The translations under genes were made by a program, and so were the position numbers. Under the pieces are notes generated by a model that made no database searches, had not been told where the DNA came from, and saw nothing but the letters and a program-made list of their open reading frames with translations. Of a stretch of DNA of 64,000 bases, positions 5,331 through 53,864 are shown piece by piece (the stretch's first letter is position 1; every line of letters begins with the position of its first letter). The DNA is taken from contig NC_088297.1 of the NCBI RefSeq assembly GCF_032854445.1, positions 12,112,163-12,176,162 of the forward strand. Direction: 5' to 3'. The stretch comes from Liolophura sinensis (lineage: Eukaryota; Mollusca; Polyplacophora; Chitonida; Chitonidae).

Positions 5331-5987
5331 CTACATGGCGCCCTGTTGACGGGCCTGACGGTTCCTGGACGCTTTCTCCAATTTCCTCTCCAGCCGTTCC
5401 CTGGTTTCCCGTCTCTTAGATTCCTCACCCTCTGCCTTCTTGAGAACGACCTGTCGTTGTCTGGCAGACGCGATTCGCGCCTTCCTCTTCACAGATGCCA
5501 ACTGCTCTTTCCGCAGGTTGGTGGCCTTGGACATGCGGTTATTCAAGTCAGCCTGTATTTTGTCCTGCTGTGGTTTGGGATCTATGGGATCAAGCAGCCT
5601 TGGTTTTCCAGACGGGTAGGCGTTTCCGTCAAAGGAGAGGTAAAATGCCACGCTTCCGTTGGCTGTTTCTCGTAGGGTTTCCGATTTGAGAAGACCATCC
5701 TGTCGGAGCTGTGTACGGATGTCTTCATCGGTGTCCCGTTTTCGGGCTATTGCCAGCGCGGGTTGCAGCTCCAGTGGTAAGTATATGGCCTCCACCACTG
5801 TAACCCGGTCGTCCACTGGCTGCTGTCTTGCACAGTGGGATTTAACCTTCTTCTTCTTCCTTTGGCAGGTCATGCATCCCATGCATGACGCCACGGCAAC
5901 CATTAAAACACTTCGTAAAAATCTCCTGACGCAAGCCATGTCTTTGACAATACTGTTGTCATCAACACAATAAGTGTGAAGAATCAC
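5331..5987 (-). CDS. Stathmin-domain protein (STMND1-like), copy 2
   Basis: Second intact 218-codon copy, nearly identical to copy 1. Visible changes include Gly to Arg in the VDDG motif, Leu to Pro after DPID, and Thr to Lys in the ASVTRK segment. The MGC start candidate is at 5882. No stop or frameshift is seen, although the noncoding part of the same unit has deletions. The promoter block upstream (6007-6031) is the same as in copy 1. Confidence 0.6.
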   Translation of the reverse strand: MILHTYCVDDNSIVKDMACVRRFLRSVLMVAVASCMGCMTCQRKKKKVKSHCARQQPVDDRVTVVEAIYLPLELQPALAIARKRDTDEDIRTQLRQDGLLKSETLRETANGSVAFYLSFDGNAYPSGKPRLLDPIDPKPQQDKIQADLNNRMSKATNLRKEQLASVKRKARIASARQRQVVLKKAEGEESKRRETRERLERKLEKASRNRQARQQGAM

Positions 5988-6006
5988 GTCATGCTATTGT
6001 CTACTG

Positions 6007-10206: not shown

Positions 10207-10863
10207 CTACATGGCGCCCTGTTGACGGGCCTGACGGTTCCTGGACGCTTTCTCCAATTTCCTCTCCAGCCGTTCCCTGGTTTCCCGTCTCTTAAATTCC
10301 TCACCCTCTGCCTTCTTGAGAACGACCTGTCGTTGTCTGGCAGACGCGATTCGCGCCTTCCTCTTCACAGATGCCAACTGCTCTTTCCGCAGGTTGGTGG
10401 CCTTGGACATGCGGTTATTCAAGTCAGCCTGTATTTTGTCCTGCTGTGGTTTGAGATCTATGGGATCAAGCAGCCTTGGTTTTCCAGACGGGTAGGCGTT
10501 TCCGTCAAAGGAAAGGTAAAATGCCACGCTTCCGTTGGCTGTTTCTCGTAGGGTTTCCGATTTGAGAAGACCATCCTGTCGGAGCTGTGTACGGACGTCT
10601 TCATCGGTGTCCCGTTTTCGGGCTATTGCCAGCGCGGGTTGCAGCTCCAGTGGTAAGTATATGGCCTCCACCACTGTAACCCCGTCGTCCGCCGGCTGCT
10701 GTCTTGCACAGTGGGATTTAACCTTCTTCTTCTTCCTTTGGCAGGTCATGCATCCCATGCATGACGCCACGGCAACCATTAAAACACTTCGTAAAAATCT
10801 CCTGACGCAGGCCATGTCTTTGACAATACGGTTGTCATCAACACAATAAGTGTGAAGAATCAC
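10207..10863 (-). CDS. Stathmin-domain protein (STMND1-like), copy 3
   Basis: Third intact 218-codon copy. It differs from copies 1 and 2 by a few substitutions (for example Ser to Arg near the N terminus, Val to Ala in QQPVDD, Ile to Val in DEDI, Ser to Phe in GEES). The MGC start candidate is at 10758. The frame stays open even though this copy's flanks are the most diverged, which fits selection on the protein or recent gene conversion. Confidence 0.6.
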   Translation of the reverse strand: MILHTYCVDDNRIVKDMACVRRFLRSVLMVAVASCMGCMTCQRKKKKVKSHCARQQPADDGVTVVEAIYLPLELQPALAIARKRDTDEDVRTQLRQDGLLKSETLRETANGSVAFYLSFDGNAYPSGKPRLLDPIDLKPQQDKIQADLNNRMSKATNLRKEQLASVKRKARIASARQRQVVLKKAEGEEFKRRETRERLERKLEKASRNRQARQQGAM

Positions 10864-10882
10864 TTGATGCTATTGCCTACTG

Positions 10883-15413: not shown

Positions 15414-15640
15414 CTACTTATGCCACCCCTTGAAGCCGAATCCCTCTGAATAATTCACTGGGAGTGAGCCAGTGGAATCGAGGAGCATGTTTGACGGAGA
15501 TTTCTCTGATTGGCTGGTGTCCATAAGAGAGCTGTCTGATGAGGTCATCATAGTGTCCTTCTGTACACTCTCAAACATACTGGCCAGCTCAGCATTAGAC
15601 TTGATCTGGGTCAGGAACTCATTCATCTGTGGATTCTTGT
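15414..15640 (-). CDS. CAND1: CAND1 exon 32 (last)
   Basis: Residues 1195-1269 ([18 protein letters not shown]). The usual end motif MDTS is followed by 32 further residues ([15 protein letters not shown] to KGWHK) before TAG at 15416-15414. Confidence 0.94.
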
Positions 15641-18600
15641 CTGTAAAACCACAGAAATAAAAAAAAAAAGATATCTTTATGATATCCATACTAACAAAGT
15701 CATATCTCATGTATAATGGGTCAAACCTAGCACAAAAGTGCATTTTTAGAGGCAAATAACTACCATAAAATATCATTTTTGGAGCTGACACATACATTTT
15801 TCCAGCAGGATATCGTAATACCTTCCAAACCAGCCTTAAAACATTTTTCCAGAGTCATTAGAATTCTCAGAATACGGTACATTGAGCAAGATAGTCATGG
15901 ACGGAATTTGGGGTCATTTGGGGTCATTCACATGTACCTTTATAATACCCTTACTAACAATGTCATTACTCATGCTCACAAGGGTCAAAATTAACCAGGA
16001 AATGTCACTGGCCAATAGGATCAGTCATTTATTTATTTGTTTGTTTGATTGATGTTTTACACCGTACTCAAGACTATTTCACTTATACCATAGCAGCCAG
16101 CATTATGTTGGGAGGAAACCAGGCAGAGCCCGATGGAAACCAACGACCATCCCCAGGTTGCTGCAGACCTTCCCAGCCGGAGAGAAGCACTCTTCTAGAA
16201 TCATTAAAATTCTCAGAATATGGTAAATTGAGCAAGTATTTCATGGACGAAATTTGGGGTCATTTAGGGTAATTTACATGTACCTTTATAATACCTTTAC
16301 TAACAAAGTCATTACTCACAAGGGTCAAAATTATAGGATCAGTGACCTATAAGACATACTGGCCCTTCTTGATATTATCAGCTGGTCCTCCAGTTAAATA
16401 CCATAATTCTTCAATTTTTTTGCACGTTTGCGAGGTGTTCATTCAAGCATATTCCCAAAGTAGACTAATAAAATTATACTTTTTGTAAAGCACTGATATG
16501 GGCCAATCCAATTAATGTAGCTCTGTCTCCAAAATGTAATCGTAAATAAGCATAAATTGCACTGAAAACTGCTCTTTTATATGCGAAAAGGTTGAGGAAT
16601 AAGGGCGCAGGACAACCTAATAAAACTGTTCTACCATTTATTTTCATGCCAGAGGTACAGCATCTTGCACCATGCCTGAATTCAGATGATTGTTTTTAAA
16701 AGTAGGAGGATAAAAAAAAATATTTATAAATCACAGATGTATTGGACAAGTGCTTGTCCTCTAAATGCCAGACCAGCAGAGCAGTGTTAATTTTCAAGGT
16801 CAAAGGCATGAAAGCAGAAGGAGCATAGGGTAGCAAAGTAGGGGACTCCCCATACACACCAGCATTAAGTGTACAGAACAGTGTTGATAAGACAGCTGTA
16901 CCAGATTTGTGAGCTCTTTCAACAGATTATTATTATTTATTTGATTGATGTTTTATGCCATACTCAAGAATATTTCATTTATGACATTCTCACGTAGTGG
17001 CCGGAGGGGAAGCCAGCTTGAGCCGAAACTTGCACTCAGCAGAGATTATAGAAGGAAGGCTAGAAGCATGATTCAGAGAGAAGAGTATGTTTGTAAATGT
17101 AGGTAGTCAACAATAGCTTAACAAAGACTTATACATTATATGTCAGACAAGTGCTAGTTAATCTCTAAAGGTACATGCCCATGTTAATTTTCCAGGCCCG
17201 TGGGCATGACAGAGGAAAAAGGGGCAAAGTAAGGGATTCAGTGCACGTACCTGCATCAAGTATGGACAGCAGAGCTGTGACAGCCCTCATGGCTGAGCGC
17301 TTTAACTCGTCCTGTTTCTCAAACTCCTGCTTGACAGAGTGAGCCTTGACCTTCGTGGTACAGGTAGATCTGAGCGGTTCAACCAAACGGTCCAGCCCTG
17401 GGGGGTAGGGGGGAAAAAAGAAATATACTCTAGTGATTTATGACTGAATTACTGATGGACCGGTGACGAACATCAAAAATTTTTCACTTATATGACAGTG
17501 GTCAGCATTAATGTAAGGAGGAAAATGGGAGTGTCTGGGTTAAACCATCATACTTTGGCAAATTAGTTACGAACTTTCCCACACGTCCTACGCACATCAG
17601 CTTGGCAGAAGACAAGGGGTCTTCAGTAAACAATGGATGGCCACACAATCATCCTCTTCCAGTATTTATTTATTTATTTGATTGGTGTTTTAAGCCGTAT
17701 TCAAGAATATTTCACTCATATTACGGCAGCCAGCATTAAGGCGGGAGGAAACTGGGCACAGATCGGGGGGAAACCCACGACCATTCGCAGGTTGCTGGCA
17801 GACCAGAAGAGGAAACCAGCATGAACTGGACCTGAATTCACAGCGACCACATTGGTGAGAGGCTCGTGGGTCATGCGCTGCGTTAGAGTGTTAACCAACT
17901 GAGCCACAGAGGTCCCCACCTCCAGTAACTGAAGAGGACTACAAAATGCCAGTCCAAGGTTGGGATTGAACCCTCCCCTGATTATGATTATTACTTACTC
18001 TGTAGTACAGCATTAGGACAGAGGGTGGCGAGCCTCACTAATGTCAGGTACATCAACATTTTAATATCATAATGATCCTTTAATCCGTCCTCCACATGGT
18101 TCAAGAACTCAAAGATGTCCAGCCGGTCCAAGCACGAATCCAACAAGGTATACATGCACTCAAACGCTGCCTGTGAAGTAAAAAGCATAAAAAGATTGTG
18201 ATCACCGATTCATCTTGTACATGTTCTATCAACTATATAATGAAATGGAAATATGCAATATTGTTTAAATAATGAACTTTGTATGCAATTGAGCCGGCAA
18301 TTGCCGTTTTTCATTTAGTTAGACAAAAATGGTGTATTAAATCAAAGTGTGATTTAGGCCACAAAAATAGGCAATATAATAAATGGAGCCAGCTTAGTTT
18401 GGGTTACCAGTTTTCTTGCTAGTATAAATGTCCAAGCCTGCCCTGAGCAGGCCTTTTGTCACCAATTTTTCCTAATGTAACGACAGTTATGGGCATTTAA
18501 TGTGATAACAATCTGATGGGAGACACAAAGAAGTCTATGTGGGAATCCACCTCGCCTCACTAATACACTACCAAGCTTCATTGCTGAAGAAAACTTCAGC

Positions 18601-21600
18601 TGATCAGCATAAATGAGATTTACTTTGTTTGTAGAACCTCAAACTTGTTGGCTTGCCTTGAATTTGCCTGTTTTGATACATTTGTTTAGTTAAATTTTGG
18701 TATGTGTTTAATGCCATAACCACAGACATTTCACATCTAGGCAACACCGATCTTATTTTATGTTTTATGGAAACATTTTAAGCAAACACAAAAACTCCAA
18801 AAATTCAATAAAAATTAAAGCTGTTATCCAACAGAGTTGCTGGGTCCATGCAACTATACTTTTACCACTTCTTGTAGCCTGATGTCTATAAAGTTCATGA
18901 CAATCGTAAAAAACACGAAAACATGTAAAGGAATGTACTGGATTTGAACCCTACTCTGCCAAGCATCATTTACAATTGGCCAAGTACTGATGACTAGAAC
19001 AGAGATTAGGCGGCTTTGATCTTCTACTGATACCCCACGACAAAAGACAAAAAGAATGCATTGTTGTGAAGTTGGCGCCAGAGAGCAGAAGACACCAATG
19101 CAGAGCTTATGACCATTACCACGGTAAACTGCAGTCAATGGTTTCATGCAATCTAGCACGAAGTTCCATTGTTATTTACATAGGACAGTTTGGTCAAGTT
19201 TTTGTTGGTTTTTTGGTCGAAAAATATGAAAAAAACACCAAGTATAAAAATAATTCTTGCAGATTTGGAATTATGAAGTCAATGGGCACCAGATAGTGTG
19301 TTTGTTTAATAATTTTAAGCGGTTATAAAAATTGACCTACTTTTGAGCCAAGTTCATTGGTCAGCTTTGACCTTACTTGCATACCAAACTAAAAGTTTTT
19401 ACACAACGGGTAGAGCGATTCACCTAAAAACTATGAACAGAAAGTTTATCTTGACAGGTTTCACCATTTTGGAGAAGAAGACTTTTTTCGGTAATCAATA
19501 AAATTCCAAATGGCCGCTAAAAATCACGTGACTGGTAAAACAGCACAAAACGTCAAAAGTTGCTTCATATGTTCCTCATTAGGAATCCAAGGTTTGGTTT
19601 TTCTACCTTTACCAGTTTTGACTAAGAGCTGACTAAGAATAATAATAATAACCCAAACGATTTCAAGAGGTTTCCCTCTATGATACTAGCGTGGACTCTT
19701 AATAATCATCCAAATGATTACGATTGTCCTGCTAGAATACCGGCGTGAACCCCTAATAAAACTGAAAATCCACCTTTTCATTTCATTCAATCTTCATGCT
19801 TCTTCTGATTTCCATTTTTCAACACTTTCCAATCATGTCTTTAACAAGAAAATTTGCTGGGACAGTCCACATGTTCCACAAATTAAATGATTTGCAAGTT
19901 TTATCTTTACTGCTATACCCTCCTCTGAGGATGAAAAAAATTGACTCTGCCTGTAAAACAACAGTTTAAATTGGTGTGGTTCTAAGACAGCTTCCAGGCT
20001 GTTTGGAGATGTGAAGCTTGCTTGTAATCCATGGATGTCTTACCTTTCTGATATCCAAACCATCATCTACTGTGTGCTTGAACGGACCCATTTCTACTTC
20101 TTTAATTAAGTCTTTCTGCAAATATAGAATTACACATTAGTAAACAAAGGCAAAATACGAGGTGGGGGGTCGGGGAATAGTAGTTCTTAAACTGTCCATG
20201 TGAGGTCATAAAATGTTGAACTGCTGAAAGTCTCACCTGAATAATATCTGAAACGTGCTCCAAAACTAGAGTGTTCCTCAATACATTTGTTTGGTCTTCC
20301 AATTATTAAAAGACAATTGGTGTTTAACGTCCTATTCACAGATGTTTAATGTCCTATTCACAGATGTTTAATGTCATATTCACAGATGTTTAATGTCCTA
20401 TTCACAGATGTTTCACTTGTATAGTTTATGGTTGGGTTTTTAGGGAAAAGGGCACTGAAACCTCCTCTCCTCACCAAGTACCCATCGAACATTTGAAATT
20501 ACTATAAAGTTGTCGCACATCTATTTACAGGTATGTTCTAGCCTCTTACCTCATCAGTTAAGGGCCTGATGAGCTTTGTAAGTAAGCACAGCACTAACTC
20601 AAATGAGACTTCAATACATTTCTGCGAAGTAATAAGTATTTTTTTTCTAGATGATTCAGGAGATCATGTACTAACTTGCCGTAACTTTGGCTTCCTTTTC
20701 CACATATTAATTTACCCTAACTTTGGCTTCGTTGTTCCCATATTAATTTACCCTAACTTTGGCTTCGTTGTTCCCATATTAACTTACCCTAACTTTGGCT
20801 TCGTTGTTCCCATATTAATTTACCCTAATTTTGGCTTCGTTGTTCCCGTATTAATTTACCTTAACTTTGGCTTCGTTGTTCCCATATTTACTTACCCTAA
20901 CTTTGGCTTCATTGTCCACATATTAACTTACCCTAATCTTGGCTTCGTTGTTCCCGTATTAACTTACCCTAATTTTGGCTTCGTTGTTCCCGTATTAACT
21001 TACCCTAACTTTGGTTTCGCTGTAAAGGTGTGGTAAAACCAGTTCTATGAGATCATGTATTAACTTACCCTAACTTTGGTTTCGCTGTAAAGGTGTGGTA
21101 AAACCAGTTCTATGAGATCATGTATTAACTTACCCTAACTTTGGTTTCGCTGTAAAGGTGTGGTAAAACCAGTTCTATGAGATCATGTATTAACTTACCC
21201 TAACTTTGGTTTCGTTGTAGAGATGTGGTAGAACCAGCTCTAGAAGATCACGTATTAACGAGGGTTTGTTGTGAGCTGCCGAGTTGAACGTTACCAAGGC
21301 AACCCGCCGCACATTGAGGTCAGGGTCTTGTAAAGTCCGCAGGAAGTCTCCGATGCAGCTCCTCAATAGAGAGTCGATGCCTTGAGGCTTGGTGGAACAA
21401 GCAGACAAAGTTTATGAAAGCAACAATGGTTTTTTTTTTTTTTTTTTTGGTATTTTAACGAACAATCCCATTATTAGTTAGAATTAGTTTGAACATGGTT
21501 TATGGCTGTTAATGAAGCTTCCATGAGAGTAATTTCATGCATAAACACATTTTATATACATGCACTAAAAATTCGCCCAAATAATGCTTCAGAAAAATAT

Positions 21601-36600: not shown

Positions 36601-39600
36601 TGGGTCGTATGACCTTGACGAGCTGTTGTGTGACCAGCAGAGCCTCTGATGTGATCTTGTAGAACGGATCTTCCACAGCATGCACAATCGGCTGAAACAG
36701 ACAAGGTGCGGCAAGTCGAGCATATCACTTTCAGACGTGTTAAGAGTGAACAGATAATTTATTTACTTATTTGAACTATCAGCTAAATAAAGAAAGTTCT
36801 GTGTCAAAGTAAATATGTCCCTCTTGGACATGTTAGAGAGAACAGCTACTTTTTTAAATTATTTGCACTTATAGGCCAAAAGAAACGAAAGAGTGTGTCA
36901 AATCAAGTATGTCACAGATGAGTGAGTGAGTGAGTGATTGGGGTTTAACTTCGTACTTAACAATTTTTCAGTCATATGGCGACGAAGTAATCCTTTGAGT
37001 GCATGTAATATGCCTCCTTGTCGCAGGACGGATTTTCACCGCTCTTTTATCTAGTGATGCTTAACTGAGACACCTTCTGAAGGCTAGCAAGCCTCCCCGC
37101 CCAAGCCATGATGCTGATAGGAGTCAACCAGTCGTTGCAGTATCCCCTTAATGCTGAATGCCAAGGGAGGAAGTTACAACTTCCTCTTTTAAGGTCTTAC
37201 GTGTGCCTCAGCTTAGGATTGACCCTGGATCTACTGTATTATCATACTGACACTATTGGTTGAAACAAACAAGTCAAATCAAGCATGTCATTCCTAAGCC
37301 TAGCTTACATGTACCCTAAACGACCTAAAAATTTAACCTCAAAAGAGCATTTCTGGAGGCAAATAAATGTCAAGAGATATTACATCTGGTGCTAAAATTT
37401 ACGTTTTCTCAGTAGAAAATCATTCTACCTTCCAAACACTTCCCAACACACTTTTCTTAAGTCAACAGAACTCCCAGAATGTGGAAAAAAGAGAGACTTA
37501 GTCCTGTATGAAATTTTAGGTCATATAGTCACAGTGGCGTCCCGTCAGAACTTGCTGTAATCGGGTCTGGGTGCGTCGGTGATCAGTGAGTGATCAGTTG
37601 TGTCTACCAATGTGACAAGTGCGCTTTATTCGTCCATTGGCAACTGGTAAGGGCCAGTTTCTGTTAGTAGGTCGTGTTCTACTTTCATCGATCAGTTGGA
37701 GCTATCTCTAATTAGTTCCTCACGCAACATTAGCGCTCTAGCGATTGACTCACAGCTGGTTCTGTACAAGTACATGTAATGGAGTGTAAAAATAACACGA
37801 TTACTCAGCTGGACTTTTACCGCGCCATTTTGGAACAATGACATGGTGATCATGTGTCCTAAAATGACAGAAAATTGGTGATATGAGTGCTCTCTTATGA
37901 CTGCGATGAACTACTACCTGTCAGTTGTGTCCTGTTTCCAATGTGCGCCACTGTGAGAGACATAAACCTCCAGTTACAGTTTAGCGCAGACAACATACGC
38001 CAGGCTTTAGGTGTGTTAAAGACAATCACTTATTTGAGACAGGTGATCTGTGAATTAATGTCAACAAAAGTTACCTAACACTTCTATCACATCACGTTAA
38101 CATTTTTTAATTCCTCCCACCGTAATGACTGCCGCCGTTATATAAGTGAAATATTCTTGAGCACATTGCAAAACACTAATCAAATAAATAAAGATTATCT
38201 TTTCCATCTTTACCAAACAAAAGAGTTAAACTCAAAACTCCCCTATTCATCTTGGATTTTTTTTTTTTTTTTACTGGTGTCTTACGCCGTACTCAGAATA
38301 TTTCACTTATACGACAGCGGCCAGCATTATAGTGGGTGGAAACCGGGCTGAGCCCGGGGGAAACCCACAACCATTAGCAGGTTGCAGGCAGACCTTCCCA
38401 CATACTACCAGAGAGGAAGCCAGCATGAGCTGGACTTGAACTCACAGCAACCACATATTCATCTTGGAGCCGAGTAACGGAAACCCATGTCTGGAAACAG
38501 CTCAGTATGACAATTACCGGTACCAAAACCCTGATGTGAGGATGGAACACTGAGGGACTGTGATGAATGAAGATACAGTTCAGGAATGACACTTACCGGT
38601 ACCAAAACCCTAATGTGAGGATGGAACACTGAGGGACTGTGATGAATGAACAGACAGTTCAGGAATGACACTTACCGGTACCAAAACCCTCATGTGAGGA
38701 TGGAACACTGAGGGACTGTGATGAATGAAGAGACAGTTCAGGAATGACACTTACCAGTACCAAAATCCTGATGTGAGGATGGAACACTGAGTGACTGTGA
38801 TGAATGAAGAGACAGTTCAGGAATGACACTTACCGGTACCAAAACCCTGATGTGAGGATGGAACACTGAGGGACTGTGATGAATGAAGATACAGTTCAGG
38901 AATGACACTTACCAGTACCAAAACCCTGATGTGAGGATGGAACACTGAGTGACTGTGATGAATGAAGAGACAGTTCAGGAATGACACTTACCGGTACCAA
39001 AACATGGATGTGAGGATGGAACACTGAGTGACTGTGATGAATGAAGAGACAGTTCAGGAATGACACTTACCAGTACCAAAACATGGATGTGAGGATGGAA
39101 CACTGAGTGACTGTGATGAATGAAGAGACAGTTCAGGAATGACACTTACCGGTACCAAAACCCTGATGTGAGGATGGAACACTGAGTGACTGTGATGAAT
39201 GAAGAGACAGTTCAGGAATGACACTTACCGGTACCAGAACACAGATGTGAGGATGGAACACTGAGGGACTGTGATTAATGAAGAGACAGTTCAGGAATGA
39301 CACTTACCAGTACCAAAACCCTCATGTGAGGATGGAACACTGAGTGACTGTGATGAATGAAGAGACAGTTCAGGAATGACACTTACCGGTACCAAAACCC
39401 TGATGTGAGGATGGAACACTGAGTGACTGTGATGAATGAACAGACAGTTCAGGAATGACACTTACCGGTACCAAAACCCTCATGTGAGGATGGAACACTG
39501 AGTGACTGTGATGAATGAAGATACAGTTCAGGAATGACACTTACCAGTACCAAAACCCTGATGTGAGGATGGAACACTGAGTGACTGTGATGAATGAAGA

Positions 39601-42600
39601 TACAGTTCAGGAATGACACTTACCGGAACCAAAACATGGATGTGAGGATGGAACACTGAGTGACTGTGATGAATGAAGATACAGTTCAGGAATGACACTT
39701 ACCAGTACCAAAACCCTGATGTGAGGATGGAACACTGAGTGACTGTGATGAATGAAGAGACATTTCAGGAATGACACTTATCGGTACCAAAACCCTGATG
39801 TGAGGACGGAACACTGAGTGACTGTGATGAATGAAGAGACAGTTCAGGAATGACACTTACCGGTACCAGAACACAGATGTGAGGATGGAACACTGAGGGA
39901 CTGTGATGAATGAAGATACAGTTCAGGAATGACACTTACCGGTACCAAAACCCTGATGTGAGGATGGAACACTGAGGGACTATGATGAATGAACAGACAG
40001 TTCAGGAATGACACTTACCGGTACCAAAACCCTGATGTGAGGATGGAACACTGAGGGACTATGATGAATGAAGATACAGTTCAGGAATGACACTTACCGG
40101 TACCAAAACCCTGATGTGAGGATGGAACACTGAGGGACTATGATGAATGAAGATACAGTTCAGGAATGACACTTAACGGTACCAAAACCCTGATGTGAGG
40201 ATGGAACACTGAGTGACTGTGATGAATGAAGATACAGTTCAGGAATGACACTTACCGGTACCAAAACCCTGATGTGAGGATGGAACACTGTGGGACTATG
40301 ATGAATGAAGATACAGTTCAGGAATGACAGCGTGTCGATCTTCATGTTCGAGCTCGAATTTTTGTCTCTGAAAACGAGAGCAAAAATAATCATTTTTAAT
40401 AATAGTTTAAATATAAAAACTTCACAAGAAAACTGTTACATGGTCCTATAATGTGGATGACTCGAACAGCGTCCAATAATATGTGTCCACTAAAAAACCT
40501 TCAGGTGCAAAAGAGTAACTGCTCTAGAGCACTAACAGTACTACAAAAATGGTGAATGGTGAAAATGGTGAAAAATCACCTTAACTTATATGTGATTTAT
40601 AATTACTCATATAAATCTCACACTATTTTTTTCACCAGCTTAGCACTGGAGGGTCAGGAGTTGGTGATGAATTTGATGCAATTTTGGGTGATTTATCAAA
40701 TTAATGCAGTTTTTCCATGAAAAATTTGATACGTGTATGTTCTAAAACACAAACGTTTCTAAACATTTCAAATGAAGTCGGTTGCGTGCAAAACAGCTCC
40801 TTTTAGACCACAAAGCCATTGGCAATAACGAAAACAGCCACTGTTGAAAAAAAAAAGACACTACAGTACGGAGAGATAAAAAAAATACAGAAGTATTGAC
40901 AGCCTTGTGTCAGTTTACCTCAGTCAGTGTTTTATATTACCTGTCCATGTATAAATGCTTAAACAGTACTGTTGCTACTTAGCAAATTACACGCATATGC
41001 AAAGATGTCAATTGCAATTTATTATATGTCCTTGAAATGACAAAAAGTTCTCGCCTTACCCCAGGGAGTACTGTATGCCTGGGACTAAGGCAGGTATATG
41101 ATCTGTCAGCGCCCCAGGTAACACCAACACCATCTCTGTCAGCAAACTAAAACAGCCCTGTCTCGTTTTTACGCTTTTTTCTCTTAACTGCTTGTTCACT
41201 GCCTTCACGATTGATGGGATCTGGCCCTGTAGCATGGAAACAGGCCTGAAACAGAGCACAGAGTAATAAGAGATTGATGGGATTTGGCCCTGCAGCATGG
41301 AGACAGGCCTGCAGTATGGAAACAGGCCTGAAACAGAACACAGAGTAATAAGAGATTGATGGGATCTGGCCCTGCAGCATGGAAACAGGCCTGAAACAGA
41401 ACACAGAGTCATAAGAGATTGATGGGATCTGGCCCTGCAGCATGGAAACAGGCCTGAAACAGAACACAGAGTAATAAGAGATTTATGGGATTTGGCCCTG
41501 CAGCACGGAAAACAGGCCTGAAACAGAACATAGTGTAATAAGAGATTGATGGAATGTGGCCCTGCAGCATGGAAACAGGCCTGAAACAGAGCACAGGGTA
41601 ATAAGAGATTGATGGAATCTGGCCCTGCAGCATGGAAAACAGGCCTGAAACAGAACACAGAGTAATAAGAGATTGATGGAATCTGGCCCTACAGCATGGA
41701 AACAGGCCTGAAACAGAACGCAGGGTAATAAGAGATTGATGGGATCTGGCCTTGCAGCATGGAGACAGGCCTGAAACAGAACATAGTGTAATAAGAGATT
41801 GATGGGATCTGGCCCTGCAGCATGGAAACAGGCCTGAAACAGAACAGAGTAATAAGAGATTGATGGGATCTGGCCCTGTAGCATGGAAACAGGCCTGAAA
41901 CAGAACACAGAGTAATAAGAGATTGACTGAATCTGGCCCTGTAGTTTGGAAGCAGGGCTGAAAACAAAAAGATTGTGTTGTCAGAGATTGATGAATCTGA
42001 CCCTGCAGCATGGAAAGGGGCCTGAAAGCAGAAAATTTACTAACAATCATAGTGCAAATGACTGACCAATTTGACTGCCAGCTATTCCGAAATCATAAAC
42101 GGTATGAACAAATCTTGTATGTTTAGGTTATCTGGATATCTGGCTGATTCTAGACCCATGACAGGAGGCAGCAGGGACACAAGTCTAGGCTTTCAGTAGC
42201 CAAGGATCTCAGCTGTGATCTTTTTATTATGGGGTTAGGCGTAGATCACAGCCGAGGAGTCTTCCAGGTTAAAATAGTGGTATTCAAGAACAGCGTTGTG
42301 CAGAGTTAAAAAATCCATGCCAAATAAACCCATACATGCATTAATAGGGCAAACCTCCAATACATTATGTTCACTAAGTCATTCTCTCTTCCTCTGCCAA
42401 TATTTTCCACATTCTGTAGCCTTTACGACCAGTAAATCCATGATAATTCACAGTTGTGACCAATGCTCAAGTGCTGTGTCAACCTCGTGACCTAATAAAT
42501 AGGGTCGATGCTCCCCACGCATGCATGGTTGATATTTCGTGACATCACTATGTTTTGATCAGCTGCTCAAACCCCTCTACTCTTGGCCACTGGAGACCGT

Positions 42601-45600
42601 TTGTGACCAGCATGAATTATACCACAATCCCTGGGCACTAAAGTCACATGACTGTCACATGTCATAACACAATATAGAGACATAAACCTTCGGCACGACT
42701 GTCTGCTGAAGATTGTTAAAATACAGTCATTTCTTGTTCCCTTGGATGCAGCCTTATCATCCCCCTGAACATGAATGGACTCACCCTTCCTCCTGTTCCA
42801 TGGAATCAGGGTCTGTTGTTACTGTTGGGCGAGTCTGTTTTAGCAAGGTGATGTAGGCATGGAATATGTCCACCTTCACATTTTCCTCTCTCTCTGCAAA
42901 CACAATACAAAACCAGTGCGAAAAATCCGAACCCATTCACTAACAGACACAGAAGGCAAAACACTTTGCAAAACAACTTCATGATGAGCCTGACATGTTT
43001 AATTATGCACATTCGGTCATATATTTGTGAAAATTAAATTAAATTAAGTTTATGATACAGATTTGACTTATTTTGATTTAAGATTTTTTTTTCTTTCACG
43101 ATGGCTTCGTGGTCTAAAATGAGCTGTTTTGGAGGCAACCAACTTCATTTGATAGGCGCTCGTGTTTTAGAACATATCAAATTTTTCATTCTTTTTTCTT
43201 AAACTCAGCTGAGTTAGTGAAAAAAATTCGCCAACGAACGAAATGTAAATATTTTCAACATGAGCCTTCAGTAAACTTTTTCACCACAGAGTAAATTCTG
43301 ACATGTGCTTGGAAAACATCATCAGGCTCAAAAAACTTAAAACATGAATGCTCTTATACACAAAATTAAGTATTTTCTCATTTTCAAAGAATGGAATCAT
43401 AAGGTTGTCTTATAGAAATTCTCTACATGTAAATTTCAGAAAATTTTAACCAGTAATTTACCAGCGATTATACAGTGAGATGTTGCCTTATAACCGTTCT
43501 TAATTCTAAAGGGAGATAACTAAGAGATTAAAATACTGATGAACTCTAATCTAACAAAACAGAAAGCATCCTGTGTTTGATCGTCCTTCGAGTTTAGTTC
43601 ACATTTAGCAGGTGTGTTCCTAAGACACGACAGAAGAGCATTGGATATACAAATTAGTCTATGGTTTTTGTCATGAACTAGCACAGCACTAGCCAATCTC
43701 TTTTCTCAGACGATCACATTTCTCACCTTTGAACCGTGCAATAAGAGCTGGTGACACAATCCTGTAGAATTCCATCAGCATCTCGTGCCGTGTGGCGATG
43801 ATGGCGTCAAGACATTTGGCCGCAGCACGTCTGACTTTCCAGCTCATGTCATCGTCATCACTATATTCCTCCTCACTCTCTCTGTCAACAGAAACGGTGA
43901 TCAGCTAGATTGGGTGTCAACAGAAAAGGTGATCAGCTAGATTGGGTGTCAACAGAAACGGTGATCAGGTAAACAGGGTGTCAACAGAAAAGGTGATCAG
44001 CTAGATTGGGTGTCAATAGAAATGGTGATCAGCTAAACAGGGCGTCAACAGAAAAGGTGATCAGCTACACTGAGTGTCAACAGAAACTGTGATCAGCTAG
44101 ATTGGGTGTCAATAGAAATGGTGATCAGCTAAACAGGGTGTCAACAGAAAAATGATCAGCTACATTGGGTGTCAACAGAAACTGTGATCAGCTAGATTGG
44201 GCGTCAGCAGATACAGTGATCAGCTAAACAGTGTGTCAACAGAAAAGGTGATCACCTAGATTGGGTGTCAACAGAAACGGTGATCAGCTTAACAGGATGC
44301 CAACAGAAAAGGTGACTGGCTAAACAGGGTGTCAACAAAAATGGTGATCAGTTAAACAGGGTGTCAACATAAAAGATGATGAGATAAACATGATGTCAAC
44401 AGAAAGGGGTTCAGCTGAATAAAGTGTCAACAGAAAAGGTGATCGGCTAAACATGGTGTTAAGAGAAAAGAGCTTGTCTGTAGGGGACACATGAAGGCAA
44501 AACTTCACCCCAATACATGAAGTACTGAAATCGTGAATTTGGTAATTTCAGTGATTGAACATCCCTCTCGTGCCATTGCGTTTTATATGCACAATATACA
44601 GGACAAAGGACAATATACAGTCTGTACTTTTTTAGATACAATCCCAAACATTTTGTTTAAAATTGCTTTTCATGTTATTGGACGCAGATCCTCATGGTAC
44701 AACATTAGTTATGCCTGTACTTTGTACTTTCTAAAAATATACGTGTTAACAGTTTTAGCAACTCAGCTAAACTTGCCAATAAAAGCAAATCACCAATAAG
44801 CAGTGAAGTCCTGAAAAACAATGAAAGCATATTCCACTTTCATTTTATTATTACATCACAACATGTGTTACACTTTAAACCTTATTTTTCCTGTTACAAA
44901 AAGTTCAAGTTTCACTTTCACTTTTGAGTTATGATTGACACTGAGCGGCCTGTGTTATACTTGCTCACCCTTCATCTTCATCTTCCATCTCTGTATCCAT
45001 GGAGCTCTCATCATCATCATCATCATAGTTGTAATTTGGATCATAACAAATGTACTCCAGGCAAATGTGGATAATCTGTCAGAGGCAGAAAAAGAATTAT
45101 CCTTACTATTTTTTTTTTTCCCCCTAAAACCTCATCTCTGATAGCATTACTCATTTTGCATTGTACTAAGTTACATTAATCTTCAATAAGGTGCTCTAAG
45201 GTCACCTGTGCCTTCTGCACCAAAAGGAAAAAACAGGACTACTGTGATGTCAGCAGAACCTGTGGTGCTCTCGGGTTATAGAAATAACTCTGGCCTGATT
45301 AGTTATCAGCTGATAACATGCCAGTGCCTTTTATTGTCTCACTTTGGGCGAATTTGTTTAATCTTAGTGTACAATATTTCCACTGGAGAAGCCTGACAAC
45401 AACAAAATTCGGGAAATTTGAAAGCATTATTGGCAGTTCAGCTTTAAACTGGGTATTATCTCCCATGATTTACCACACTGCTGGGCTCATCACTTACATC
45501 AGTCACGAACGGCGTCACCTCTTTCGGACACTTCCTAACAAACGACTCAAACGCCTGGATACAGTACTCCCTCAACTCATCGTCTTCTATTTTACAGAAT

Positions 45601-51600: not shown

Positions 51601-53864
51601 CGTACAACAGGAGTGGAGGTCAGCATGATTTGGGCTTGAACTCACAGCGATCGCATTGGTGTGAAGTTCTGGAGTAATTGTGTTGCGCTAGCACACTAAC
51701 CACTTGGCCACGGAGGCCACCCCAGCAGGCTTAATTGACTTACCACTTGACAGCCAGATTCTGCACCTCCCCGTTTTTGTCTTCCAACAGCTTCAGCAGC
51801 ATTTTTACCACCTGGTAATTCGTAGGAAAAACAACAAATCATCCAATGGTAAAATTAATCAGTAAAATATGACTAGTACATGTATGTTTTGGTCTTGAAT
51901 TCTGAATGCAGGGAAAGCCCAGGACTATTAAAATATGCCACAAGTCAGTTGAATTTAAGAGCTTTCATGTTTCAGTCCAGCTTACATGAAGTATAGCATG
52001 TAGGCACGCAGCAACTGCTTACCTTGCGCTCACTGTCCTCATCTAGCTTGATGGAATCTTTCTGAAGCTCCGCCATCAAGTCATTTGTGGCCATGAATCT
52101 AAAATCTTTATCGCTGGACGTCATCTGAAACAGAAATAGAGAGAGATTTTAGCATGCTTCTCAAATTATAACTTCAAAGAACAATAGACCACCATGCTCT
52201 CGGAGTCATGTGATCAAAACTGGTTGGACACACAGTGGAGATAAACCGTTGGCATTCTGCTTCAGTCTGGTCAAAGAAATGGACTACTCAAGACTTATAT
52301 TTTTGGATATATGTAACTCAAAATGTGCATAAATTTAACCAGCCGAAAGCAGCAAATGGAGATTGACACAGTATTTATAAATTTATCTGATTGGCATTTT
52401 ATGCTGTACTCAAGAATATTTCACTTATATGACAGCGGCCAGAAATATGGTGAGAGGAAACTGGGCCAAAAACCCATGAACATTCGCAGGTTGCTTCAGA
52501 CTTTCCCACATACAGCCTGAGAGGAAACCAACATGAGCTCGACTCGAACTCACAGCGACCACATTGGAGAGAAGCTCCTGGGTCACTGCGCCGCGCTGGC
52601 ACGATAAGCACCCTGGGTCTTCAAGGCCCCCGGATTGATAAAGTAAGCATTAGTTTGTAAAATTAATGTACAAGAGATCAAGGAGCTGGATTAAAAGTTA
52701 CATGGCTGACTCTGACTGACTCTTGAATCTGGCGATTCGAAGTATGGTAGTCAGAGAGTACTGACTGTTGGTCGAGAAATAGTTGGACGCGCCATATACA
52801 TGGCTGCTCAACCACAGTCAGAGTCAAGCATGTTTGTCTCAATGGTGTGTGGCACGGCTAACAGCCAGATAACCATTCCACCTACCTCTAGCTGCTCAAA
52901 TCCCACATTGTAACATATATGCCTTTCCAACTGCCAAGCAAAATTTTGTAATGATAATCCAATAAAGTATTGTTTCCTGTGTAAAATGCCTCCAGGCAAT
53001 ACTGTCATCAGTTGAACATAACCACCCTTTTGCCTCGTTGCCTGACAGGGTCACGTGAAAAACTTGAATCGTTACCAACAGTCGAACTCCGAGACTCCAT
53101 AATTCATAGTTGACTTAATTTAAGATAGTACAAATTATGATACTATATATTACCCAATTCCCAAAAATTTAAAATGACATTTACCAAAAATATTTCACAA
53201 GGCTAAGGTAATCACTGTTAAAAAAAAAATAAAATAAAAAGTCCGCTCTTGGAAAGATTCCTAAAATTGTATTCTCCCAGCAGCTGTGTTGAAAACACGA
53301 AGGTACCACATGGCCTGGAGTCATTTTACCCGTGAAGTGACCCTTTATTGGGTTACTATTACAAAATGCTGTGTGTCACATGGAAGGGTACATGTATATA
53401 TTACAACGGTGATTTCAGCAGCTAGAGGTAGGTAGAGTGGTTATTGGCCCCGCTACCCATGCCCACATCATTGAGACAAACTTGTTCGACTCTAACTGTG
53501 GTTGAGCAGCCATGAATATGGAGTACCCAAACATTTCCCCCACCAACAGTCAGTGTACTTGGACTAAGAGTACGGAAGTTCCAGACAGAGTTCTTGATCA
53601 GATCAGAATATCACCTCGATCAGAATATCACCTCGATCAGAATAAATCTATGCATTGTTGTCAAAGATTAGCGGTAAGACACAATACCGTAGTCTCTAAA
53701 AAGGCATAGATGAGTTTACATCTGCGGTAACTGATTTGATACGGGACGATGAGACAGACATATTTCACGTTGCTGTTGTTGTTGTTGAGACATGAAAGAT
53801 GCATTTCTCTGACATCACTTACCTTGTCCAGAAGATGGGCGATGTGATACGACACGCTCGCCAT
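15414..53864 (-). CDS. CAND1: CAND1, cullin-associated NEDD8-dissociated protein 1 (32 exons)
   Basis: CAND1 binds unneddylated cullin-RBX1 and exchanges substrate-receptor modules of SCF-type ubiquitin ligases in cytosol and nucleus. I traced 32 coding exons whose phases join without a break, giving 1269 residues; vertebrate CAND1 has about 1230. The whole protein is an all-helical HEAT-repeat solenoid. Recognisable blocks in order are [14 protein letters not shown] (start), [18 protein letters not shown], the acidic loop (residues ~305-345, [20 protein letters not shown]), [66 protein letters not shown] and [15 protein letters not shown]. Two oddities: an extra base in exon 4 (G-run 50902-50904) shifts the frame after residue ~105, and 32 residues extend past the usual MDTS end. 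Introns carry many SINEs and minisatellites derived from the gene's own splice junctions. Identity is secure; function rests on the family. Confidence 0.97.
15685..16345. repeat. Dispersed family D repeat, locally duplicated around a SINE
   Basis: The block at about 15838-16023 recurs at 16191-16345 (tagaattctcagaatac and the ggggtcatttggggt region), with SINE 16026-16190 between them. Related blocks occur at 28140-28575 and 37300-37530. Confidence 0.55.
16026..16190 (-). mobile_element. Family A SINE, partial
   Basis: 3' two thirds, with (TTTA/TTTG)n tail; the tRNA head is absent. Confidence 0.85.
16398..16640. repeat. Family C dispersed repeat
   Basis: Shares a long block (ttcttcaa...ttgcacgtttgcgag, gccaatccaattaatgtagc, cactgaaaactgctctttta) with 25795-26050, 26128-26470, 58865-59095 and 61165-61460. 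No coding content. Class unknown, probably a non-autonomous transposon. Confidence 0.55.
16929..17035 (-). mobile_element. Family A SINE, fragment
   Basis: Tail and part of the body, with a central deletion. Confidence 0.7.
17251..17397 (-). CDS. CAND1: CAND1 exon 31
   Basis: Residues 1146-1195 ([36 protein letters not shown]); acceptor CCCCCCAG. Confidence 0.96.
17664..17918 (-). mobile_element. Family A SINE, full length
   Basis: Complete from (TTTA)n tail to the tRNA-like head (tgagccacagaggtcccc at the right end). Confidence 0.9.
17999..18170 (-). CDS. CAND1: CAND1 exon 30
   Basis: Residues 1089-1146 ([35 protein letters not shown]). The donor is placed after CAGA (GTAAGT) to complete the Arg codon. 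Confidence 0.96.
20044..20115 (-). CDS. CAND1: CAND1 exon 29
   Basis: Residues 1065-1088 ([19 protein letters not shown]). Confidence 0.95.
20325..20412. repeat. 22-26 bp minisatellite
   Basis: Four units of atgtttaatgtcctattcac in CAND1 intron 28. Confidence 0.85.
20675..21005 (-). repeat. CAND1: 36-bp array of the exon 28 donor
   Basis: About nine units. On the minus strand each reads CCAAAGTTAGGGTAAGTTAA or a close variant (some GTAAAT). Each therefore carries the last codons of exon 28 and its 5' splice site. Confidence 0.9.
21006..21198 (-). repeat. CAND1: 65-bp array of the exon 28 3' end plus donor
   Basis: Three extra units at 21006, 21071 and 21136, followed by the real exon end at 21201. 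Each encodes [17 protein letters not shown] followed by GTAAGT, a close copy of the exon's [17 protein letters not shown]. Confidence 0.92.
21199..21387 (-). CDS. CAND1: CAND1 exon 28
   Basis: Residues 1002-1064 ([30 protein letters not shown]). The exon's 3' end and donor GTAAGTTAATA are the founder of the 65-bp and 36-bp arrays downstream. Confidence 0.95.
22135..22324 (-). CDS. CAND1: CAND1 exon 27
   Basis: Residues 938-1001 ([32 protein letters not shown]). Confidence 0.96.
22891..22958 (-). CDS. CAND1: CAND1 exon 26
   Basis: Residues 916-938 ([18 protein letters not shown]). Confidence 0.93.
23011..23220. mobile_element. MITE-like element
   Basis: About 205 bp with inverted ends (cacaaagccgtttctgactt against aagtcagaaatggttttgc). 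A related, more diverged copy starts at 23262. No coding capacity. Confidence 0.5.
23262..23520. mobile_element. MITE-like element, diverged
   Basis: Starts caatttcacaaagccgcttc and ends near ctgactgagaaaggttgagg; second member of the 23011 family. Confidence 0.4.
23640..23800 (-). mobile_element. Family A SINE, partial
   Basis: 3' domain and body up to the agaggagaagccc region; the head is lost. Confidence 0.8.
23815..24061 (-). mobile_element. Family A SINE with nested insertion
   Basis: Body sequence runs to gagagcctggg, is broken by a foreign piece (23893-24000) and resumes with taacccacgaccatccac. Confidence 0.7.
23893..24000. mobile_element. Small MITE-like element nested in a SINE
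   Basis: About 105 bp (ccggtttcatgaagctcact ... cttagctaagggcaactt) with inverted cttagctaag-type motifs inside. Confidence 0.5.
24065..24310 (+). mobile_element. Family A SINE, near full length
   Basis: B-box-like gagttcaagtcc present, AAATAAATAAA tail; the first bases of the head are degraded. Opposite orientation to the SINEs on its left. Confidence 0.85.
24369..24452 (-). mobile_element. Family A SINE, deleted
   Basis: Tail joined directly to the cccatgaccatctgcaggtt segment; about 60 bp of conserved 3' domain missing. Confidence 0.7.
24473..24576 (-). CDS. CAND1: CAND1 exon 25
   Basis: Residues 881-915 ([25 protein letters not shown]). A deleted SINE lies 20 bp downstream of the donor. 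Confidence 0.95.
24793..25022 (-). mobile_element. Family A SINE, near full length
   Basis: From tttatttatttgtttgactg to the head end (ccatggaggcccc), with a short internal deletion after gaaacccacgca. Confidence 0.85.
25082..25176 (-). CDS. CAND1: CAND1 exon 24
   Basis: Residues 849-881 ([18 protein letters not shown]). A SINE ends 60 bp downstream of the donor. Confidence 0.95.
25404..25430. repeat. (AT)n microsatellite
   Basis: About 13 AT dinucleotides in CAND1 intron 23. Confidence 0.9.
25542..25609 (-). CDS. CAND1: CAND1 exon 23
   Basis: Residues 827-849 ([19 protein letters not shown]). Confidence 0.94.
25795..26050. repeat. Family C dispersed repeat
   Basis: Contains tcctcaaccttctcgcatgt and the gacaaaactccattggttgg block. 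Confidence 0.55.
26128..26470. repeat. Family C repeat interrupted by a SINE
   Basis: Block seen at 26128-26280 and continued at 26399-26470; SINE 26281-26398 sits inside. Confidence 0.55.
26281..26398 (-). mobile_element. Family A SINE, 3' part
   Basis: Tail to the cccacgacc block; inserted inside a family C element, so it is the younger insertion. Confidence 0.85.
26894..26989 (-). CDS. CAND1: CAND1 exon 22
   Basis: Residues 795-826 ([27 protein letters not shown]). Confidence 0.94.
27434..27499 (-). CDS. CAND1: CAND1 exon 21
   Basis: Residues 773-794 ([14 protein letters not shown]). Confidence 0.92.
27828..28028 (-). CDS. CAND1: CAND1 exon 20
   Basis: Residues 706-772 ([31 protein letters not shown]). 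The donor GTTTGC is weak and lies next to an A-rich run on the plus strand. Confidence 0.93.
29104..29189 (-). CDS. CAND1: CAND1 exon 19
   Basis: Residues 677-705 ([15 protein letters not shown]). Confidence 0.94.
29258..29500 (-). mobile_element. Family A SINE, diverged
   Basis: Tail altered to (TTTA) with gattggaagtttacgctgta; head recognisable (ctaatcaccaggccg). Confidence 0.75.
30125..30252. repeat. 29-bp minisatellite near exon 18 donor
   Basis: Four to five units of gcagaaaatgtctgtaaa plus gcagacaaatg, starting about 40 bp downstream of the CAND1 exon 18 donor. Confidence 0.9.
30292..30391 (-). CDS. CAND1: CAND1 exon 18
   Basis: Residues 644-677 ([28 protein letters not shown]); donor GTAGGT. 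Confidence 0.95.
30510..30780 (+). mobile_element. Family B repeat
   Basis: (GTGA)n start, atgacgacgaaggaatcctt and tgtaatgtgcctccttgttg blocks; right end degraded. Confidence 0.7.
31474..31507 (-). CDS. CAND1: CAND1 exon 17 (34-nt microexon)
   Basis: Residues 632-643 ([12 protein letters not shown]); acceptor GTTGCAG, donor GTAAGT. Very short, but required for phase and for the conserved sequence. Confidence 0.92.
31727..32060. repeat. ~117-bp tandem repeat, 3 units
   Basis: Units start near ttacatttacacacacccag; located in CAND1 intron 16. Confidence 0.9.
32090..32978. repeat. ~67-bp satellite-like array
   Basis: About 13 units of agccacatcatccatataca, ctaggcagaacacatcaaat and cactgttcagacaac. 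Two adjacent units (near 32380 and 32445) share the same short deletion, a sign of recent unit copying. It ends about 100 bp from the exon 16 donor. Confidence 0.92.
33080..33211 (-). CDS. CAND1: CAND1 exon 16
   Basis: Residues 588-632 ([31 protein letters not shown]). Confidence 0.95.
33228..33342 (-). mobile_element. Family A SINE, 3' part
   Basis: Starts 17 bp upstream of the CAND1 exon 16 acceptor (exon edge 33211), with an inserted (TA)n run; joined directly to a family B repeat on its right. Confidence 0.8.
33345..33672 (+). mobile_element. Family B repeat, near full length
   Basis: Runs from (GTGA)n through gacgacgaagggatccttag to the tRNA-like ggatctaccgctcctgaagc. Confidence 0.75.
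34082..34332 (-). mobile_element. Family A SINE, full length
   Basis: From gacttatttgattggtgttt to the head ending in aactgagccacgtaggcccc. Confidence 0.88.
34430..34850. repeat. Family E dispersed repeat
   Basis: Shares gagccttcagt...ctttgtcatcaggtaaaata and atgacatgtgcttggaaagc with 43060-43340; a related piece lies inverted at 40660-40830. Confidence 0.45.
34873..35012 (-). mobile_element. Family A SINE, partial
   Basis: Tail and body; the gccgtactcaaga segment is deleted and the head is lost. Confidence 0.75.
35222..35386 (+). mobile_element. Family A SINE, 3' part
   Basis: Starts at the ggccgtaagttggaaggtct block and ends in an ATAAATGAATAAATAAAT tail; it lies 65 bp downstream of the exon 15 donor. 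Confidence 0.8.
35451..35568 (-). CDS. CAND1: CAND1 exon 15
   Basis: Residues 549-588 ([19 protein letters not shown]). Confidence 0.95.
35725..36275. mobile_element. Cluster of three family A SINE pieces
   Basis: 35725-35835 (plus, 3' part), 35836-36102 (minus, full length, tail to tail with the first) and 36124-36275 (minus, head part only, ending ggccatggaggcccc). The first two form an inverted pair. Confidence 0.8.
36598..36691 (-). CDS. CAND1: CAND1 exon 14
   Basis: Residues 518-549 ([18 protein letters not shown]). The donor is GTCAGT, weaker than its neighbours. Confidence 0.95.
36921..37240 (+). mobile_element. Family B repeat, near full length
   Basis: (GAGT)n start, catatggcgacgaagtaatcc, right end ggatctactgtatt. 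Confidence 0.75.
37300..38110. other. Family D repeat plus unclassified intron sequence
   Basis: 37300-37530 matches the family D blocks at 15685 and 28140. 37530-38110 shows no gene or recognisable repeat. Confidence 0.4.
38112..38456. mobile_element. Two family A SINE pieces, opposed
   Basis: 38112-38195 (plus, last 80 bp with tail) and 38270-38456 (minus, poly-T tail, body up to gaactcacagcaaccacat). The second abuts the 79-bp donor array. Confidence 0.8.
38490..40255 (-). repeat. CAND1: 79-bp array of exon 13 3' end plus donor (about 22 extra units)
   Basis: On the minus strand each unit is 66 nt of exon 13 sequence (22 codons, [20 protein letters not shown]...) followed by GTAAGTGTCATTC. 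Most units keep the GGTACCG/GTAAGTG junction (plus strand cacttaccggtacc). A few have cacttaccagtacc, and one has cttaacggtacc, which destroys the GT. Confidence 0.95.
40256..40367 (-). CDS. CAND1: CAND1 exon 13
   Basis: Residues 480-517 ([32 protein letters not shown]). Its last 66 nt and donor GTAAGTG are repeated about 22 more times downstream. The donor chosen here is the first full-consensus one after the exon. Confidence 0.92.
41060..41245 (-). CDS. CAND1: CAND1 exon 12
   Basis: Residues 418-480 ([50 protein letters not shown]). The acceptor and first 36 nt are repeated about 12 times upstream in the intron. Confidence 0.95.
41246..42030 (-). repeat. CAND1: 63-bp array of exon 12 acceptor plus exon start (about 12 units)
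   Basis: Each unit on the minus strand has a pyrimidine-rich tract ending TTCTGTTTCAG, followed by the first 36 nt of exon 12 (encoding [12 protein letters not shown]). Since 63 is a multiple of three and no unit adds a stop in the exon frame, the array stays open across many units. Confidence 0.95.
42785..42893 (-). CDS. CAND1: CAND1 exon 11
   Basis: Residues 382-418 ([19 protein letters not shown]); acceptor GTTTGCAG, donor GTGAGT. Confidence 0.95.
43060..43340. repeat. Family E dispersed repeat
   Basis: Contains gatggcttcgtggtctaaaa and gacatgtgcttggaaaacat; counterpart of 34430-34850. Confidence 0.45.
43727..43881 (-). CDS. CAND1: CAND1 exon 10 (acidic loop, second part)
   Basis: Residues 330-382 ([35 protein letters not shown]). 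Its acceptor TTTCTGTTGACAG is the first unit of a 32-bp minisatellite. Confidence 0.96.
43882..44470 (-). repeat. CAND1: 32-bp array at the exon 10 acceptor (about 18 units)
   Basis: Units of tgtcaacagaaaaggtgatc plus agctaaacaggg. The unit touching exon 10 supplies the real acceptor (TTTCTGTTGACAG). The other units read TTGACACC, so the AG is missing and they are not usable acceptors at that position. Confidence 0.92.
44969..45075 (-). CDS. CAND1: CAND1 exon 9 (acidic loop, first part)
   Basis: Residues 295-330. It encodes [15 protein letters not shown] followed by an acidic stretch, matching the acidic insert known in CAND1. A (CAT)n run on the plus strand codes the Asp tract. Confidence 0.95.
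45498..45660 (-). CDS. CAND1: CAND1 exon 8
   Basis: Residues 240-294 ([36 protein letters not shown]). Confidence 0.96.
46417..46642 (-). CDS. CAND1: CAND1 exon 7
   Basis: Residues 165-240, two HEAT repeats ([40 protein letters not shown]). Confidence 0.96.
46768..47012 (+). mobile_element. Family A SINE, full length
   Basis: Head cggcctccatggctcagttg, two B-box-like gtgagttcaa stretches in partial duplication, AAATAAATAT tail. Confidence 0.9.
47040..48580. other. Unclassified 1.5 kb of intron 6, possibly an inserted element
   Basis: Base composition is richer in GC than the neighbouring introns. A plus-strand frame of 125 codons (48170-48547) begins with a hydrophobic stretch, but its codons match no family I know. 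I see no terminal repeats with confidence. Confidence 0.3.
48590..48795 (+). mobile_element. Family A SINE lacking its 5' head
   Basis: Starts at gcggtcgctgtgagttcaag (B box) and ends in an AAATAAATAAATAAA tail. Confidence 0.85.
48938..49004 (-). CDS. CAND1: CAND1 exon 6
   Basis: Residues 143-165 ([16 protein letters not shown]); donor GTGAGT. A 38-bp minisatellite starts about 40 bp upstream of its acceptor. Confidence 0.94.
49045..49665. repeat. ~38-bp minisatellite in intron 5
   Basis: About 16 imperfect units of tattctgagaacacactgg plus aaagctacattctactg. The right third has diverged to ggctacattaggtattcc. Confidence 0.9.
49729..49829 (-). CDS. CAND1: CAND1 exon 5
   Basis: Residues ~109-142 ([27 protein letters not shown]). 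The reading frame fits exon 4 only after the one-base correction there. Confidence 0.95.
50548..50812 (+). mobile_element. Family A SINE, full length
   Basis: Head gggcctccgtggctcagtcg, B box gagttcaagtcc, AAATAAATAAATA tail; 80 bp from the CAND1 exon 4 donor. Confidence 0.92.
50895..51008 (-). CDS. CAND1: CAND1 exon 4 (with apparent 1-bp insertion)
   Basis: Residues 71-109 ([17 protein letters not shown]). Near the 3' end the family motif RDISSIG is broken: a three-base G run (50902-50904, plus strand) in place of two gives RDISQYW and then a stop beyond the donor. Removing one base restores the phase into exon 5. Confidence 0.93.
51465..51721 (-). mobile_element. Family A SINE, full length
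   Basis: Head end cttggccacggaggccac; 20 bp downstream of the exon 3 donor. Confidence 0.9.
51744..51811 (-). CDS. CAND1: CAND1 exon 3
   Basis: Residues 49-71 ([16 protein letters not shown]). The donor GTAAGTC splits the Cys codon. Confidence 0.95.
52023..52124 (-). CDS. CAND1: CAND1 exon 2
   Basis: Residues 15-48, starting [17 protein letters not shown]; acceptor CTGTTTCAG, donor GTAAGC, both in phase 0. Confidence 0.95.
52376..52632 (-). mobile_element. Family A SINE, full length, diverged
   Basis: Tail reduced to ataaatttatctgattggc; head end tcttcaaggcccc. Confidence 0.8.
52690..53610. mobile_element. Fold-back element with long inverted arms
   Basis: Left arm about 52740-53060 matches the reverse complement of right arm about 53290-53575 (for example tggctgctcaaccacagt against ctgtggttgagcagcca, gacaaac...caatg, cctacctctagctgct). 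The spacer is about 200 bp. No coding capacity. It lies in CAND1 intron 1. Confidence 0.7.
53604..53645. repeat. 17-bp direct repeat, 3 units
   Basis: gatcagaatatcacctc repeated at the right edge of the fold-back element. Confidence 0.85.
53823..53864 (-). CDS. CAND1: CAND1 exon 1
   Basis: Residues 1-14 ([14 protein letters not shown]). The start ATG is at 53864-53862 in a GAAATGG context; donor GTAAGTG. Confidence 0.95.

Follow-up and report, generated by a model that had tools for sequence, protein, structure and literature searches.

Tandem arrays at splice junctions of the CAND1 gene of the chiton Liolophura sinensis: probably ordinary minisatellites that arose by chance at exon edges

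The window analysed here, a stretch of 64,000 nucleotides from the chiton Liolophura sinensis (contig NC_088297.1, positions 12,112,163 to 12,176,162), carries on its minus strand a gene that is, by its sequence, CAND1. Its exons were located by tblastn with an approximate human CAND1 guide, and its splice junctions were taken directly from the sequence. The PF08623 (TIP120) profile matches three exons within the window, and for two exons the PDB yields CAND1 chains as matches (E 1e-30 and 2e-17). The gene, four of its exons and the arrays at their edges are as follows.

15513..53864, minus strand: CAND1 (TIP120) gene, with 31 anchored exons running from the ATG (53864) through the final coding exon
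43883..44470, minus strand: 32-bp intronic array, 18 copies, the last of which provides the exon 10 acceptor with its polypyrimidine tract and AG
43727..43881, minus strand: CAND1 exon 10 (tblastn and junction reading)
41226..42033, minus strand: 63-bp acceptor array, about 11.5 copies, each of about 27 bp of the end of intron 11 (polypyrimidine tract, AG) and about 36 bp of the start of exon 12
41060..41245, minus strand: CAND1 exon 12 (tblastn, junction reading and PDB match)
40256..40367, minus strand: CAND1 exon 13, donor GT at 40255 (tblastn and junction reading)
38507..40329, minus strand: 79-bp donor array, 23 copies, each joining the last 67 bp or so of exon 13 to about 12 bp of intron that carry the 5' splice site
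21199..21390, minus strand: CAND1 exon 27 (tblastn and junction reading; upstream edge approximate)
20992..21259, minus strand: 65-bp donor array, about 4 copies, each joining the last 53 bp or so of exon 27 to about 12 bp of donor-bearing intron
20672..21023, minus strand: 36-bp array continuing the 65-bp array, in whose unit AAAGTTAGG, the exon end, is retained together with either the donor or its variant GTAAAT

Beside CAND1 the window also holds a repeated unit of about 5 kb: three near-identical open frames of 220 amino acids, about 5 kb apart (154-813, 5334-5993 and 10210-10869, minus strand), each have a stathmin-family match above the Pfam cut-off.

An earlier, sequence-only reading of this DNA held that four arrays overlap exon edges, two at donors and two at acceptors. 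The positions, both donor arrays and one acceptor array stand, but the 32-bp array, read base by base, terminates at the intron AG and holds no exon base; a junction of CAND1 is spanned by three arrays and abutted by this one. Its upstream copies displayed have GACAC, GACGC or similar where the last has GACAG. In the 79-bp array, base-by-base reading places copy 0 at the genuine end of exon 13, and among the 22 further copies, all intronic, the GT is intact in 20 and GTRAG in 19. The 65-bp array adds three further copies of the exon 27 end, donor included, before giving way to the 36-bp array; over both (20672-21259) the exact sequence GGGTAAGT occurs eight times, counting the genuine one. The final copy of the 63-bp array is the genuine start of exon 12, and the array holds 12 TTYAGG acceptors, again counting the genuine one. 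Both boundary types are duplicated in CAND1, the 5' boundary in two arrays and the 3' boundary in one, and the reading of the units bears out the proposal that exons 12 and 13 are bracketed by an acceptor array on one side and a donor array on the other.

Recurrent birth within one gene, also proposed from the letters, was upheld: the arrays sit at different junctions, have different units and differ in the divergence between their copies, and so arose more than once. The 65-bp copies are identical to one another and differ from exon 27 at 8 of 53 sites (2, 2 and 4 by codon position), whereas the 79-bp copies differ from their consensus by about 4% on average in the exon part (0.037) and by 0.015 in the 12-bp intron part; this unlike divergence indicates that the arrays differ in age. 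The corresponding row for the chaperonin gene CCT_a was discarded from the comparison of copies, as its ungapped register was lost after a few copies. In the exon part of the intronic 79-bp copies the differences are spread evenly over the codon positions (18, 19 and 17), which argues that these copies are free of coding selection. Each of the two donor units in CAND1 is bounded by a short direct repeat, TGTCATT (7 bp) or GTTAATAC (8 bp), with one copy in the exon and the other just within the intron. In these two cases the flanking repeats would be the trace expected from slippage or repair between short repeats.

Selection for a role, such as the tuning of splice choice or transcript decay, might have kept or expanded the ladders, and the 19 intact GTRAG donors of the 79-bp array and the 12 TTYAGG sites retained by the 63-bp array would fit this. 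We consider such a role very unlikely, however, given that the copies are young and alike throughout, with the 12-bp intron part too short to reveal special conservation, that the intronic 79-bp copies lack any codon-position bias, and that splicing to the closest upstream acceptor of exon 12, which lies 82 bp away, would put the protein out of frame. A conserved CAND1-like protein is read only from the exon-proximal copy, and splicing presumably uses that copy.

The accessible text of the assembly report gives 632 scaffolds and about 609.5 Mb from PacBio HiFi reads (PMC11068029); the assembly was first published as Liolophura japonica, and a later correction renames the species L. sinensis. 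Repeats collapsed or inflated in assembly, or errors in the reads, could in principle account for the arrays, since long arrays of near-identical units assemble poorly and coverage was only 14x in the same text (PMC11068029). The HiFi reads nevertheless average 8,347 bp there (PMC11068029) against a longest array of 1.8 kb, and many scattered substitutions distinguish the units; we hold an artefact to be the least probable of the explanations considered and extremely improbable in itself. The copy numbers may be inaccurate in the assembly, and it looks unlikely, judged from the published read length, that the arrays would vanish with better reads. Elsewhere in the assembly, one strand of contig C99 (108,685 bp) carries seven COX1 matches, one partial, spaced about 15.5 kb apart, and C99 is, on this reading, a head-to-tail mitochondrial contig; another COX1 match lies on C632. 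COX1 gives a sensible translation when AGA is decoded as serine and AAA as lysine, one of the grounds on which amphioxus was rejected as the source of the DNA; a search for the GFP family gave no match, a weak negative since its controls gave none either.

CAND1 had drawn attention by its arrays, and other genes were therefore sampled without regard to arrays: nine chaperonin (PF00118), eight adaptin (PF01602) and six aldehyde dehydrogenase (PF00171) genes, with 2-10 exons located in each and several others missed. For PF00118, 67 of 76 matches were used, omitting two intron-poor genes, three lone matches and the three extra tandem CCT_a copies, which constitute the array; for PF01602, 49 of 59 were used, the 10 omitted lying in intron-poor or lone places; and six of eight aldehyde dehydrogenase places were used. 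Edges lacking a clear splice signal were placed at the end of the profile or alignment, and edge 582 of CCT_e was dropped as a junction mark (the profile match there extends into a 27-bp array). The 23 genes comprise 227,667 bp with 78 arrays, and 127 donors and 127 acceptors were tested. Two observations were made along the way. A plain Pfam search of C1:72038002-72038324 (CCT_a, minus strand) gives three extra tandem copies of an exon end at 109-bp spacing, an example of how family match tables can be mined for junction-spanning arrays. At the aldehyde dehydrogenase locus L047, an array of three 79-bp copies (8357-8594 in gene orientation) overlaps the end of the last matched exon by 12 bp; this exon end is not among the splice edges tested.

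Two nulls were used. The first takes units with the lengths seen in the data and lets each arise at a random place outside exons; the second places whole arrays at random with none swallowing an exon. An array born beside an exon is pushed away from it rather than laid over it, and whole-array placement was therefore kept as an upper bound; unit birth, which gives the lower expectations, is the fairer null. Of the 254 edges tested in the 23 genes, 5 are spanned, four donors (CCT_a, CCT_e twice, AP_c) and one acceptor (AP_g), against 3.7 expected under unit birth (P = 0.32) and 10.3 under whole-array placement. In the CAND1 stretch (15001-54000), with 16 array complexes and 60 exon edges tested, three edges are spanned against 1.06 expected under unit birth (P = 0.09) and 2.94 under whole-array placement (P = 0.59). 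The argument that random placement would rarely hit exon edges so often is not supported by these counts, and neither is the need for a mechanism acting on splice junctions, the frequency in the 23 genes being compatible with random unit birth. Across the sampled genes there are 94 arrays in 266,667 bp; where arrays are this dense and exons many, matches at exon edges are to be expected and alone do not point to a splice-linked mechanism. Spanned introns number 5 of the 127 sampled in the 23 conserved genes, and junction-spanning arrays are probably common in this chiton genome: should introns at large behave alike, this rate would amount to thousands of such arrays per genome.

A rival reading is that units arise preferentially at 5' splice sites, for example through R-loops, stalled transcription or donor repair, at about 2-3 times the rate elsewhere, with acceptors at background. 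Four donors are spanned in the 23 genes against 1.87 expected under unit birth and CAND1 has two donor arrays, yet this donor count in the independent sample is not significant (P = 0.12); for acceptors one is observed against 1.87 expected (P = 0.85). With the first 17 genes alone the donor count had given P = 0.036, and the six aldehyde dehydrogenase genes added later contributed no spanned edge. Over all 24 genes six donors are spanned against 2.40 expected (P = 0.035), a figure that includes CAND1, which was chosen for its arrays. No sign of a hidden donor origin was seen in the remaining intronic arrays: among the 83 that lie off annotated edges, donor-like units are not over-represented (two sense and one antisense at a score of at least 5).

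Motif counts over the whole genome bear on the same question. A triple was defined as three motifs in a row with gaps of 20-50. The donor motif MAGGTRAGT forms 1400 triples from 33,605 single occurrences, compared with 395 from 24,368 for the motif backwards, 432 from 27,920 for a GT-swapped control and 649 from 30,802 for that control backwards; per single motif, donor triples are 2.0 to 2.7 times as frequent as in the three controls. The acceptor motif TTTTYCAGR forms 388 triples from 55,350 singles, and backwards 70 from 25,847, a 2.6-fold difference. Such counts weigh against reading the arrays as purely random, and the donor excess would agree with a bias to donors, but the acceptor excess is equally large and a donor-only bias leaves it unaccounted for. 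The matches listed contained 15 clusters of the donor motif, 14 of the swapped control and 28 of the acceptor motif; they are not strand-complete, and densities drawn from them are rough. When the 5' ends of the donor clusters were inspected, 4 of the 15 among the matches listed had a coding exon ending at the start of the array.

Donor-cluster exon 1: ankyrin protein (Pfam)
Donor-cluster exon 2: SNF2-like protein (Pfam; top PDB match 'Helicase-like protein'), which we take to be Mot1/BTAF1
Donor-cluster exon 3: iron-hydrogenase-like protein (Pfam)
Donor-cluster exon 4: 2-oxoglutarate dehydrogenase (PDB; Pfam E1_dh match under the cut-off)

A possible fifth, L038, has an open exon-like stretch that gave no Pfam match. 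Were true donors the source of the motif excess, some 54-72% of the triples should, by arithmetic from the counts, lie there, more than the 4-5 of 15 recognised, although non-coding exons would escape recognition. With only 4-5 coding exons among these 15 clusters and no donor-like excess in the 83 arrays, the motif excess is unaccounted for. These data neither establish a modest donor bias nor speak decisively against one. A bias to donors on the scale set out above seems to us unlikely, and we would give as little credence to its stronger form, in which transcription or splicing (for example through R-loops) biases birth at least two- to three-fold to 5' splice sites and thousands of arrays feed new splice sites and introns.

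We propose instead that the arrays are ordinary minisatellites that originated by chance where an exon meets an intron, an explanation that we think likely, though with real room for error. A segment of tens of bases would be tandemly duplicated at a random place, perhaps through slippage or short-homology repair, and the array would grow through further duplication. Where a junction happened to fall within the segment, the copy attached to the exon body would preserve the reading frame and the remainder would become intron, so that selection could tolerate the event, while duplications within an exon would mostly be lost. The outcome would be donor ladders running into the intron 3' of an exon and acceptor ladders 5' of one. 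In favour of chance birth we count the make-up of the units, recurrence in independent genes, the frequency of spanned edges, the density of arrays, the lack of a donor-like excess in the 83 arrays off annotated edges, the even codon-position differences and the short direct repeats bounding the donor units; against it stand the excess of both donor and acceptor motif triples and the preponderance of donors over acceptors (four against one outside CAND1). In the gene sample spanned edges are about as frequent as random births in a repeat-rich genome would make them, and a special splice-site mechanism is not needed there. The analysis also supplies a usable null for judging arrays at exon edges. 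Near-identical donors or acceptors lined up beside one exon amount to a natural experiment on which copy the spliceosome chooses, and junction-spanning arrays are raw material for intron gain.

Related structures are known from other systems. Intron gain in the potato RdRp gene reportedly proceeded by tandem genomic duplication of a segment bearing AG and GT. The chiton arrays resemble that case in that tandem duplication copies splice signals within a gene, and differ from it in that no new intron or exon is evident, the extra copies staying in an existing intron. The human interferon-induced gene 6-16 (IFI6) carries a minisatellite with a short unit that repeats a sequence like the donor consensus at an exon end. 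It and the chiton donor arrays are alike in having donor-like repeats at the end of an exon, but the IFI6 unit is short and the case is confined to one human gene.

The closest likeness is to the 'mirages' of amphioxus, for which Canestro et al. in 2002 are said to have given the first report. The accessible text of a paper on amphioxus globins describes mirages as minisatellite-like duplications of intron-exon boundaries, found in the globin genes BflGb6 and BflGb9 and previously known from Adh3; they affect 5' and 3' boundaries alike, and RT-PCR shows that splicing stays regular (PMC3087553). That of a second paper adds troponin C and likens repeats in PGBD5 to mirages (PMC3902484). The structure in CAND1 had been taken to be undescribed; these two texts already describe it in lancelets. 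The 79-bp, 65/36-bp and 63-bp arrays have the unit of a mirage, exon and intron joined across a splice site, and the 32-bp array does not. The chiton arrays are therefore a known kind in a new phylum, and what is new is the mollusc and the probable scale; searches of the open-licence literature for mirages or splice-site minisatellites outside lancelets yielded no mollusc case, which leaves their absence unproven. As in the lancelet genes described in those texts, the chiton units span the intron-exon boundary, 5' and 3', and keep the splice signals in many copies. For the lancelet mirages, the same texts offer regular splicing by RT-PCR and haplotype differences in copy number, whereas the chiton arrays are known from the DNA of one assembly alone. 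Unlike the lancelet mirages, those of the chiton belong to a mollusc, reach 23 copies, occur as three arrays in one gene and have had their frequency tested against random birth. Mirages are thereby extended from single lancelet genes to a mollusc, and can be common.
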